Shown here in pieces: positions 911 to 4,066 of a stretch of DNA of 64,000 nucleotides; the stretch's first letter is position 1, and every line of letters begins with the position of its first letter. Origin of the DNA: Bacteroidia bacterium (GTDB lineage Bacteria; Bacteroidota; Bacteroidia; Flavobacteriales; Flavobacteriaceae); contig JAUIBP010000004.1 in NCBI GenBank assembly GCA_030427735.1, positions 62,001 to 126,000 of the forward strand, in the 5' to 3' direction. The translations under genes were made by a program, and so were the position numbers. The notes below the pieces were generated by a model. It saw nothing but the letters and a program-made list of their open reading frames with translations, searched no databases and was not told the DNA's origin.

Positions 911-1519
911 ATGGCTTTCGAATTACCGAAATTACAATATGCGTACGATGCATTAGAACCAAACATTGATGCACGTACTATGGAAATACATCATACAAAA
1001 CATCACCAAGGTTATACCAATAACCTAAATAATGCCATTGCTGGTACAGATTTAGAGGGTAAATCTATCGAAGATATTTTAACAGGTTTAGACATGAGTA
1101 ATGCAGCTGTTAGAAATAACGGTGGTGGATTTTACAATCACTCATTATTTTGGGAAGTAATGAATCCAGAAGGTAAAGGTGTGTTGTCTGGCGAATTAAA
1201 AACAGCTATCGAAACTGCTTTTGGTTCTGTAGATGCTTTTAAAGATGCTTTTAGTAAAGCAGCAGCTACACAATTTGGTTCTGGTTGGGCTTGGTTGTGT
1301 GTACACAAAGGTGGTAAAGTAGAAGTTTGTTCTACACCTAACCAAGACAATCCGTTAATGCCAGGAGTAGCTTGCGAAGGAACTCCTATTTTAGGATTAG
1401 ATGTTTGGGAGCACGCTTATTATTTAAACTACCAAAACAGAAGACCAGATTATATTAATGCGTTCTTTAACGTAATTAACTGGAACGAGGTAGAGCGTCG
1501 TTACGCCGAAGCAAAATAA
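911..1519 (+). CDS. sodA: Superoxide dismutase, Mn-type (Fe/Mn family)
   Basis: The 202-residue protein is a full-length Fe/Mn superoxide dismutase, which converts superoxide to hydrogen peroxide and oxygen. Metal ligands are visible as H27 (in IHHTKHH), H77 (NHSLFW), D164 and H168 (DVWEHAYY). Two positions that usually separate metal types read as in Mn enzymes: a glycine four residues before H77, and Gln in the NQD motif near residue 145. Mn use, or cambialistic use, is therefore likelier than strict Fe. There is no signal peptide, so it should be cytoplasmic. It is monocistronic, with its own promoter box and a strong terminator. Confidence 0.95.
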
Positions 1520-1587: not shown

Positions 1588-1665
1588 AAAAATAAAAAGG
1601 TGAACTTATTCAGTTCACCTTTTTGCCCCAAATCTACCATGAACTTAACCTACTTATGTTATGGT
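1588..1665 (-). ncRNA. Candidate small RNA, copy 1
   Basis: Read on the minus strand, the 5' part forms an 8-bp hairpin with one bulged C (ACCATAAC with GTTCATGGT). A linker AGATTTGGGGCAAAA follows, then a perfect terminator hairpin (AGGTGAAC with GTTCACCT) and a T-rich tail. A TATATTTG box (1677-1670) sits 4 nt upstream of the conserved body, matching TAnnTTTG. The body of about 45 nt is repeated exactly at 2017-2063. The transcript is inferred, not observed. The Rfam Flavo-1 family would be the first comparison to make. Confidence 0.6.
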
Positions 1666-1669
1666 GAAA

Positions 1670-1677
1670 CAAATATA
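1670..1677 (-). promoter_or_regulatory. TAnnTTTG -7 box for small RNA copy 1
   Basis: TATATTTG on the minus strand is an exact match to the Bacteroidota -7 box. It is placed so that transcription would begin at or just before the conserved ACCATAAC. Confidence 0.5.
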
Positions 1678-1680
1678 AAG

Positions 1681-1984
1681 TGGATTTAGGTCTACTTAAA
1701 ATAATACTAGTTGAAATGCTAATAAATTAGTCTAACGGGATAAATATGGAGTCTTGTTCTGTTTTAGTTAATCGTAATCGCTATTTTTTATGAATATGAA
1801 AAAAATAGTCAGGTAGGTTAATTTTGAGATGTTCCAAAAAATGAAGTCAAGCCTCTTAAACTGAAGTTGCTAACGTTAAGTTAAAGAGCAGGGAATTAAA
1901 TTTATGTACTTGAAAATTGGAGCATGTCCAATATAAAATATTAAAGAATCTGTTTTGGGAAAACGAATTGAAAGACGTAAAATT
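1681..1984. other. Spacer between the two small RNA copies, nothing recognised
   Basis: AT-rich sequence of about 300 bp. No open frame with coding character, no terminator and no repeat was seen on either strand. Confidence 0.5.
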
Positions 1985-2063
1985 TTAAAAATAAAAAAGG
2001 CGAAAATTAATTCGCCTTTTTTGCCCCAAATCTACCATGAACTTAACCTACTTATGTTATGGT
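1985..2063 (-). ncRNA. Candidate small RNA, copy 2
   Basis: This copy has the same body as copy 1: the 5' bulged hairpin and the GATTTGGGGCAAAA linker are identical. It ends in a different terminator stem (AGGCGAA with TTCGCCT) plus T tail. The third stem pair changes from T-A to C-G on both sides, so pairing is kept while the sequence changes. The upstream box CTAATTTG keeps TTTG but not the TA, so its promoter looks weaker than that of copy 1. The 320 bp between the copies contains no gene that I can recognise. Confidence 0.6.
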
Positions 2064-2167: not shown

Positions 2168-4066
2168 TTAGTAGGCGCGTTCTTTGTTGCCTTCAAAAAA
2201 GTTTATAAATGCTCTGTTTACCACACGATTTCCTCCAGGGGTAGGATAGTTTCCTGTAAAATACCAGTCTCCTAAATTTTTAGGACAGGCTTTATTTAGG
2301 TTTTCTACACTTTGGAAAATAGTATGTACTTCTGCGTTTGTAGATTCATCCGAAATTAATTCAGCAATTTTTTCTGAAATTTCATCATCGGTAAATTGGT
2401 CGTACAACTCTTTTACGTAGTTTACTATTTTCTTGTCTTTTAGCTCTACCTGCTCTTTACATTTATTGTAAACTTCTTCTACCATATGGTATTTGTTGTT
2501 TTCTTTTAAAAGACTAAGCATGGCTCTAAATGCTACCAAACCTTCTAGGTTAGCCATATCTATACCATAGCAGTCTGGATAACGTATTTGTGGAGCCGAC
2601 GATACTACAACGATGCGCTTAGGGTGCAGGCGATCTAGCATTCTAATAATACTTTTCTTTAAAGTGGTGCCGCGTACAATACTATCGTCTATAATTACAA
2701 TATTGTCTGTAGGTTTAATTACGCCATACGTAACATCGTAAACGTGCTCTACAAGGTCGTCTCGACTACTGTCTTCGGTAATAAAGGTTCTTAGTTTAGC
2801 GTCTTTTATAGCTATTTTTTCTATTCTGGAGCGTTCAGATAAAATGTCTGTAACTTGTTTTTCCGATAAACTTCTGCTGCCGTCTAAAATGGCTTTAGTT
2901 TTCTTCTTGTTTAGAAAATCTTCAACCGTTTCTATCATTCCGTAAAACGAGGTTTCAGCAGTGTTTGGTATGTAAGAAAAAACAGTGTTTTTGGTATCGT
3001 TATCTATAGTTTTAAGAACTTTAGGCATGATTAATCGGCCCAAGGCTTTGCGTTCTTGATAAATTTCGGCATCGCTACCTCTAGAAAAATAGATGCGTTC
3101 GAAAGAACAGGCTTTGCGCTCTGTGGGTTCTAATATTTGCTCTATTTTTACTTTTCCAGATTTTTTGGTAATTATCGCATGTCCTGGTTCTAGTTCCTTA
3201 ACTTTATCAAAATCGACATTAAATACCGTTTGGATTACAGGGCGCTCTGAAGCTACCACTACAATTTCGTCGTCTTTATAATAGTAAGCAGGGCGAATAC
3301 CAGCTGGATCTCTTAAAACAAAAGAATCTCCATGTCCAAGCATACCTGCCATAGCATAACCGCCATCAAAATTTTTGGCAGCACGTTTTAAAATTTTACC
3401 AACGTTTAATCGATCTGCTATTAAAGGAGAACATTCTGTTTTAGTGTAGCCTTCGGCTTTTAATTGTTTGTATTTTTTGGCAACGGCATCGTCTAGAAAA
3501 TGACCTATTTTTTCCATAATGGTAATCGTATCTGCCTTTTCTTTTGGGTGCTGCCCAATGCGTAGTAAATTGTCGAATAACTCGTTAACATTGGTCATGT
3601 TAAAGTTACCTGCAACAATTAAGTTTCTGTGCATCCAGTTGTTCTGTCTTAAAAAAGGATGTACACTTTCTACACTGTTTTTACCAAAAGTACCGTAGCG
3701 AACATGTCCTAATAACACTTCCCCAATGTATGGAATATGGCGCTTTTGCGAGGCCACGTCGTCTGCGTATTCTGGGTGTTCTTTAAGTTCTTGATTAATG
3801 CGGTCGTTTATTTGGCCAAAAATATCTTGTATGGGTTGTTGGGCATTAGAGCGTACTCTGCTAATGTAGCGTTCTCCAGGCTGGGTGTCTAGTTTTATAC
3901 TTGCAAATCCAGCACCGTCTTGCCCGCGATTGTGCTGTTTTTCCATCATTAAGTACATTTTATTTACGCCATAAAATGCAGTACCATATTTTTCTTTATA
4001 GTATTCTAATGGTTTTAAAAGTCTAATAAGTGCAATACCACACTCGTGTTTTAAAGCATCGCTCAT
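2168..4066 (-). CDS. purF: Amidophosphoribosyltransferase (PurF-type, long Bacteroidota form)
   Basis: The protein should catalyse the first committed step of purine synthesis, using glutamine and PRPP to make 5-phosphoribosylamine. C9 in HECGIALIRL would be the glutaminase nucleophile, exposed after removal of an eight-residue propeptide. The PRPP-binding loop is seen as VIIDDSIVRGTT around residue 456. At 632 residues it is longer than the roughly 500-residue enterobacterial enzyme, as I recall for flavobacterial homologues. purN lies 2.5 kb upstream on the same strand. A hairpin with T run precedes the gene, so it may be transcribed apart from the PfkB gene or attenuated. Confidence 0.85.
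   Translation of the reverse strand: MSDALKHECGIALIRLLKPLEYYKEKYGTAFYGVNKMYLMMEKQHNRGQDGAGFASIKLDTQPGERYISRVRSNAQQPIQDIFGQINDRINQELKEHPEYADDVASQKRHIPYIGEVLLGHVRYGTFGKNSVESVHPFLRQNNWMHRNLIVAGNFNMTNVNELFDNLLRIGQHPKEKADTITIMEKIGHFLDDAVAKKYKQLKAEGYTKTECSPLIADRLNVGKILKRAAKNFDGGYAMAGMLGHGDSFVLRDPAGIRPAYYYKDDEIVVVASERPVIQTVFNVDFDKVKELEPGHAIITKKSGKVKIEQILEPTERKACSFERIYFSRGSDAEIYQERKALGRLIMPKVLKTIDNDTKNTVFSYIPNTAETSFYGMIETVEDFLNKKKTKAILDGSRSLSEKQVTDILSERSRIEKIAIKDAKLRTFITEDSSRDDLVEHVYDVTYGVIKPTDNIVIIDDSIVRGTTLKKSIIRMLDRLHPKRIVVVSSAPQIRYPDCYGIDMANLEGLVAFRAMLSLLKENNKYHMVEEVYNKCKEQVELKDKKIVNYVKELYDQFTDDEISEKIAELISDESTNAEVHTIFQSVENLNKACPKNLGDWYFTGNYPTPGGNRVVNRAFINFFEGNKERAY

Follow-up and report, generated by a model that had tools for sequence, protein, structure and literature searches.

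The interval between sodA and purF in the 64,000-nt stretch of flavobacterial DNA analysed here ("the window") carries two short minus-strand sequences with a common body and different terminators, and raises the question of what these elements are and what keeps their body so nearly constant. The answer that we favor, with a probability of roughly 0.8, is that they belong to a family of ~74-nt trans-acting antisense sRNAs that would target the start region of a small gene at another locus, likely blocking initiation, and that a putative shared regulator governs both. The family, its synteny and structure, the complementarity, the codon constraint, the one-way co-occurrence and the shared upstream element described below were all computed from the genomes.

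Two probable small RNA genes in the window

Both copies lie on the minus strand within the interval between sodA (911-1519, plus strand) and purF (2168-4066, minus strand), which are conserved neighbours outside the RNA and were named by ORF reading. Copy 1 occupies positions 1592-1665, with its 5' end near 1665, and copy 2 positions 1990-2063, with its 5' end near 2063; each is ~74 nt long. A block starting ACCATAACATAAGTAGGTTAAGTTCATGGTAGATTTGGGGC is identical in the two (1665-1625 and 2063-2023) and extends into a run of A; we refer to its 41 nt as the "body". The terminator hairpins follow at approximately 1624-1594 and 2022-1993. Each copy folds as two hairpins, a bulged one at the 5' end and the terminator, at -22.9 kcal/mol for copy 1 and -21.0 kcal/mol for copy 2, with z-scores of -4.5 and -4.3 and none of 200 shuffles equally stable; the z-scores drop to -4.0 and -2.8 when additional flanking bases are included. 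The identical body and bulged hairpin of the original prediction are thus borne out. The terminator stems, GGTGAAC/GTTCACC and GGCGAA/TTCGCC, do differ by a paired change as it had stated; one such change between two copies is weak evidence alone, and the same behavior across 94 distinct sequences (see below) is strong evidence for a conserved RNA structure. The covariance model scores the copies at 91.0 bits (1593-1665) and 87.4 bits (1993-2063).

An exact TAnnTTTG box, recognized at the outset, is present at copy 1 (TATATTTG, 1677-1670, minus strand, -7 box), and a -7-like box at copy 2 (TAATTTGG, 2075-2068, minus strand) matches this pattern imperfectly. The sequence between the copies had been described as unrelated, which is accurate for most of the flanks and overlooks a weak direct repeat, with its halves ~20 bp apart, upstream of both. 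This minus-strand element spans 1708-1735 at copy 1 (TTAGACTAA, 1735-1727, found by eye, and TTTCAACTA, 1716-1708, found by pattern) and 2105-2132 at copy 2 (TTTACCTAA, 2132-2124, by eye, and TTTAATCTA, 2113-2105, by pattern). At up to three mismatches the window copies, on contig C13, are the only two in the 3.64-Mb genome, and a reversed-pattern control gave none. The two copies are 400 bp apart in this genome, and ~40-220 kb apart or on separate contigs in five relatives of the genus (G001-G005). A strong terminator-like inverted repeat, ACGGGCTACAAA...TTTGTAGCCCGT, was seen by eye 3' of sodA at 1539-1576.

Distribution and conservation of the family

A 75-nt DNA query of 98 genomes found the sRNA in 46 of 59 Flavobacteriaceae genomes (one of them, G019, counted through partial copies) and in none of 39 genomes from other families of the order. 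The covariance model matched 19 of 148 genomes of the order, 17 of them Flavobacteriaceae with strong scores; the other two, from other families, scored 34 and 29 bits and are probably noise, since single stray matches inside the family reach the same level. A pattern scan of named genomes returned at least 118 stretches, in Formosa, Winogradskyella, Aquimarina, Salinimicrobium, Aequorivita, Flavobacterium and others, and the family spans many marine and freshwater flavobacteria. Either purF or sodA lies within 2.5 kb of the sRNA at 74 of the 80 loci examined out of these 118 or more. Of the six remaining loci, three (L072, L105 and L111) are elsewhere, and the others come within 200 bp of an end of their stretch. 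Arrays consist of one to six copies, spaced mostly ~150-550 bp apart.

The body is nearly invariant, apart from clade variants such as GGTAAGATTTGGGG and, in Flavobacterium, CATTAGT replacing CATAAGT. In an alignment of 94 distinct sequences that was fitted to the structure, 98.0% of cells pair and nine of 11 terminator pairs show changes on both sides; covariation in the 5' hairpin is low (two of 11 pairs). Of 283 distinct copies, a set that excludes antisense sites at the target described below, 185 have a TA..TT.G box beginning at -12, and in 111 an exact TAnnTTTG is present. A further alignment, A3, combines the two window copies with 48 from a script-selected, non-redundant set of 52; left out were two antisense target sites, one truncated row and the second copy of L088.

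Searching for the body across flavobacterial genomes recovered, as had been anticipated, the same body followed by varying terminators. Together with the promoter box, the covarying terminators and the fixed genomic place, this comparison strongly supports the view that the window elements are genes of a transcribed RNA; transcription itself we infer from these features. A plain dispersed DNA repeat was rejected, as there are only two copies in their own genome and the place is fixed across relatives.

Individual arrays show some departures. In one clade (L045-L049) the last copy of the array, the one nearest sodA, is preceded by a conserved sequence peculiar to it, TTTATTTCCC.CAATACCAG, and carries a variant GGGACGAAAAGGG, which hints at copy-specific control. 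Two diverged solo copies, GATTTGGGTAAAAG, lie outside the purF-sodA interval in G010 (L051, 1969-2037 and 10593-10661, minus strand).

A small open reading frame at an unlinked locus

Weak matches to the sRNA query were found outside the purF-sodA interval, in the sense of the sRNA, between scoB and a dipeptide-type ABC-transporter ATP-binding gene (names from ORF reading). Read on the opposite strand, these sRNA-like sequences form the leader and the beginning of a small ORF. We define "smORF-T" as this ORF of 26-46 aa, which is unlinked to the sRNA and has the scoB-ABC interval as its usual place. The window genome encodes a 42-aa version on the minus strand of a different contig from the sRNA (G000:C9:297059-297184). 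Among 50 scoB-side regions surveyed, 49 of which are from Flavobacteriaceae genomes, smORF-T was identified by its C-terminal pattern in 31 and by eye in six further, diverged versions; the G010 version is frameshifted. In that locus (L041) the ORF runs out of frame before the conserved C-terminus, and the leader sites are intact.

The 37 intact versions carry a coding signature, with pairwise differences of 0.50, 0.34 and 0.59 at codon positions 1, 2 and 3. A conserved KK[VIL]F-type motif (KKxFxL) marks the C-terminus, outside the sites complementary to the sRNA. The C-terminus is mostly amphipathic, with a hydrophobic moment of 0.23-0.60 and a net positive charge, and the N-terminal NLP part lacks hydrophobic character. 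The peptides that were tried against Pfam and NCBIfam matched no family. The profile used below (A2) was built from 33 of the 37 peptides, leaving out G004, G025, G034 and G046, and the peptides of G019, G030 and G044 begin in it at a chosen internal methionine.

Predicted pairing of the sRNA body around the smORF-T start

Sequence complementary to the body lies in the start region of smORF-T. RNAduplex, run on the body and the -75 to +45 region of the same genome, gave z-scores from -4.1 to -11.3 and at most one of 200 dinucleotide shuffles as good in all 31 genomes tested, each of which contributed both its own sRNA and its smORF-T sequence. In the window genome the duplex reaches -38.1 kcal/mol over 31 pairs and includes all three bases of the start codon. 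Among 55 window ORF starts (ORFs of at least 110 aa) none does better than -23.1 kcal/mol, and among 2,962 random windows none better than -32.5 kcal/mol. The smORF-T duplex is stronger than -51 kcal/mol in G013, G038 and G055, and at least two nucleotides of the start codon are part of the best duplex in 19 of the 31 genomes. The seven remaining start regions of the 38 available were tested with the canonical body only: G017 (-33.7 kcal/mol), G019 (-39.1), G022 (-30.4), G025 (-27.1), G030 (-20.9), G034 (-27.0) and G058 (-26.6).

The 38 start regions hold 63 sites resembling CCCAAATCTACC (two mismatches or fewer), where mononucleotide shuffles give 0.40. Most of the sites lie near -26 and +11, with up to four per region and none in six of the 38. 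The exact 12-mer occurs 116 times in the 59 Flavobacteriaceae genomes, against 14 times for the reversed control; by reading of coordinates, 18 of these sites (in 17 genomes) belong to smORF-T, which is the most recurrent locus after the sRNA copies themselves, and 31 to neither. A search of the window genome alone with a 15-mer and two mismatches did not separate from its control (18 matches, and 16 for the reversed sequence).

The +11 site lies inside smORF-T, where its codons AAT CTA CC encode N-L-P. The leucine of this site is CTA in 21 of 23 cases, compared with 31 of 178 other smORF-T leucines (p = 2 × 10-12, on related sequences), and the codon choice of a protein thus appears to be held by pairing with an sRNA.

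Binding is slightly stronger between cognate sRNA and smORF-T than between swapped partners (p = 0.008); the near-constancy of the sRNA keeps this signal small. The complement is shorter in the GGTAAGATTTGGGG clade, where the canonical body binds G006 (-20.7 kcal/mol) and G030 no better than typical shuffles. Among four genomes of this clade, the genome's own sRNA binds clearly better in G006 alone, and slightly worse in G016.

We conclude that antisense pairing to the smORF-T mRNA, the most conserved target found, best explains the near-invariance of the body. The two window genes would yield members of a multicopy purF-sodA family whose nucleotides ~2-44 pair with the mRNA of the unlinked gene near -26, often through the AUG; many genomes would offer a second pairing site within codons 4-8. 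From the complementarity to the start, the RNA most likely holds the mini-protein off, the probable effect being a block of initiation, that is, repression and not activation. A concrete, testable target is thereby proposed for an sRNA family conserved nearly letter for letter across many genera; this target and the family-wide distribution are additions to what had been observed in the window.

Co-occurrence and the case for other targets

The smORF-T profile matched 37 of the 59 Flavobacteriaceae genomes at E ≤ 3 × 10-4, and the frameshifted copy of G010 at E = 0.02. smORF-T is present in 38 of the 46 genomes with the sRNA and in none of the 13 without it (Fisher's exact test, p = 5 × 10-8, ignoring kinship among genomes that are related and hence not independent). 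Weak matches that were not counted, at E = 0.009-0.04 and several of them containing stops, came from one sRNA-negative genome (G051, E = 0.04) and six genomes of other families. A second sample, outside Flavobacterium, gave smORF-T in four of four Flavobacteriaceae genomes with the sRNA and none of four without, with one weak match containing stops (G100, E = 0.03). The dependence looks one-way, with the peptide present only alongside the sRNA.

The reverse does not hold. Eight of the 46 sRNA-positive genomes are without smORF-T, with G025 a candidate by pattern only; G012 and G035 are without both smORF-T and the ABC neighbour, and G024, G047, G050 and G057 have the neighbour with no smORF-T beside it. 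Ten Flavobacterium genomes, selected because they match the sRNA covariance model, gave no usable smORF-T match (one, at E = 0.017, contains stops) and no ABC neighbour at E ≤ 1 × 10-100. Since Flavobacterium keeps the sRNA without smORF-T, smORF-T cannot be the sole target, and in this genus and the other genomes that are without smORF-T the sRNA must have other partners.

These facts raise the alternative of a general multi-target riboregulator, FopS- or Qrr-like, whose body is kept for a whole regulon. It is compatible with the explanation we favor, and we rate it at a little under even odds. Besides the eight genomes and Flavobacterium, the 31 residual exact 12-mers point in its direction, set against the 14 occurrences of the reversed control, as do single extra sites in L232 and L241, each with an ORF starting 17 nt downstream. 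It is opposed by the finding that no other conserved start-site target recurs among the 19 of 31 residual sites inspected, most of which are within or antisense to genes, although short seeds would escape such a search. In the ten Flavobacterium genomes an 18-mer allowed three mismatches gave 161 matches, sRNA copies included, compared with 117 for the control, and 10 loci inspected shared no start site.

Two groups of residual sites have their own features; the others inspected, L232 and L241 aside, are scattered. In L231 (G048) and L238 (G004) the exact CCCAAATCTACC at position 1001 overlaps, in antisense, the beginning of 281-aa ORFs that are homologous to each other, and probably reflects coding conservation. 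Three sites (L245-L247, ~1001-1100) are one dispersed element, found twice in Salinimicrobium catena G012 and once in G035, both of them genomes without smORF-T and the ABC neighbour; it begins CCCCAAATCTACCATAACTTACC and holds the inverted repeat GCTGTTTTTA ... TAAAAACAG.

A shared upstream element and a search for Hfq

The region from -72 to -34 of the sRNA has the consensus CTTTTAACCGAATTTATAGGCATTTCATCTAAAATTTTT. A direct repeat of the type TTTNATCKA, ~20 bp apart, is found upstream of both the sRNA and smORF-T. Upstream of smORF-T, a position weight matrix of the sRNA region scored z ≥ 2 in 31 of 38 cases (mean 3.6), and it did so in one of 38 (mean -0.7) on a control stretch elsewhere in the same loci. 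The element is weak or absent (z ≤ 1.5) in G006, G016, G017, G019, G025, G034 and G041. From this shared element we infer a common transcription factor, so that one regulator acting on the direct repeat would probably govern the sRNA and smORF-T alike.

Hfq (PF17209) was not found in any of 20 genomes, the window genome included, and was matched in five of 14 control genomes. This search gives no sign of an Hfq-dependent sRNA in 20 of 20 genomes, which fits a long pairing made without that chaperone.

Comparison with known RNAs

Membership in Flavo-1, a flavobacterial RNA, had been put forward as a possibility. The Rfam covariance search placed no family at its gathering score, and Flavo-1 is absent from the 63 sub-threshold matches at E ≤ 10 (lowest E = 3.9 × 10-4), which we take as AU-rich terminator noise; Flavo-1 and the other Rfam families were therefore rejected, the likeness to Flavo-1 being that both are flavobacterial RNAs. 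The second possibility raised, an undescribed sRNA, holds with respect to Rfam, where the family is new. Within open-licence PMC papers the core sequence had no occurrence, and none of the matches listed there for flavobacterial sRNAs, FopS and type I systems names this RNA.

FopS (RF04319) scored 19.3 bits (E = 2.2) against the window sRNA, far from its gathering score of 56 bits. The FopS RNAs of Bacteroides are described as paralogous, multicopy short sRNAs that pair near start codons (PMC11697453). The present family resembles them as a set of multicopy short Bacteroidota sRNAs, with pairing near the start codon predicted here. The differences are that FopS, as described there, targets mostly SusC-type mRNAs and that its genes are intergenic, antisense or 3'UTR-derived (PMC11697453), in place of the single purF-sodA array seen here. 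Rfp18 of F. psychrophilum is presented as a conserved flavobacterial sRNA with a strong predicted structure, and differs by description in pairing with metalloprotease mRNAs via its third stem-loop (PMC9723704). Set beside each other by description only, Rfp18 and the present sRNA could be one RNA or two; F. psychrophilum is absent among the stretches, at least 118, listed by the sRNA pattern scan.

Relation to type I toxin-antitoxin systems

At 26-46 aa smORF-T is below the ~60 aa that bounds the proteins of type I systems, and the sRNA is complementary to its mRNA in 31 of 31 genomes, by computation only. The expectation of one locus fails, with the sRNA on C13 and smORF-T on C9, and separate places in other genomes too. 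The pair is not filed as type I because linkage fails and toxicity of the peptide is only putative. The best reading of the sequences is that the sRNA would work like a type I antitoxin, but an unlinked and multicopy one.

TisB/IstR-1, ZorO/OrzO, ShoB/OhsC and DinQ/AgrB are described as divergent genes at one locus whose antitoxins spare the initiation site, and SymR, whose gene lies opposite symE, as extending over the start codon (PMC4147584). The proposed system would share with the four divergent pairs the silencing of a small-peptide mRNA by an independently transcribed sRNA, and would differ in that the sRNA is unlinked, multicopy and predicted to pair over the start region.

Whether smORF-T harms its own cell, with the sRNA as its antitoxin, is a special case of the favored explanation. 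We regard it as possible and tentative, with the odds against it. The size of the peptide, its amphipathic, positively charged C-terminus, the antisense match to the start region and the failure to find the peptide without the sRNA are all consistent with a toxin. They are countered by the widely conserved chromosomal place of each of the two unlinked genes, by the persistence of the sRNA alone in Flavobacterium and by the non-hydrophobic N-terminal part. A conserved Flavobacteriaceae circuit of this kind, in which an unlinked, array-amplified antisense RNA holds off a membrane-active micropeptide under a shared regulator, is an equally tentative proposal. Were it true, it would to our knowledge be one of the first peptide/antisense-RNA systems of the Bacteroidota, and its antitoxin the first known that is unlinked and multicopy. 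A 2025 paper, whose own case is cyanobacterial, states that the type I systems identified before it all came from Proteobacteria, Firmicutes and Tenericutes (PMC12390103); a toxic smORF-T peptide would extend type I-like systems to Bacteroidota.

Other readings of the scoB-side locus

The smORF-T leader might act as a decoy, or sponge, that titrates the sRNA, leaving the peptide secondary. The clustering of up to four sites in one start region, and the 18 exact 12-mers in 17 genomes, would suit such a role. We consider it improbable in view of the coding signature, the KKxFxL motif conserved outside the sites, and the crowding of sites around the start codon. The scoB-side element holds repeats of the sRNA core in sRNA sense and might itself be a further sRNA of that sense, as it was initially read. 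This now seems very improbable: no conserved terminator was seen in that sense, and the reading was overturned by the opposite strand, where there are the shared upstream element and an ORF that is conserved and shows a codon signature.
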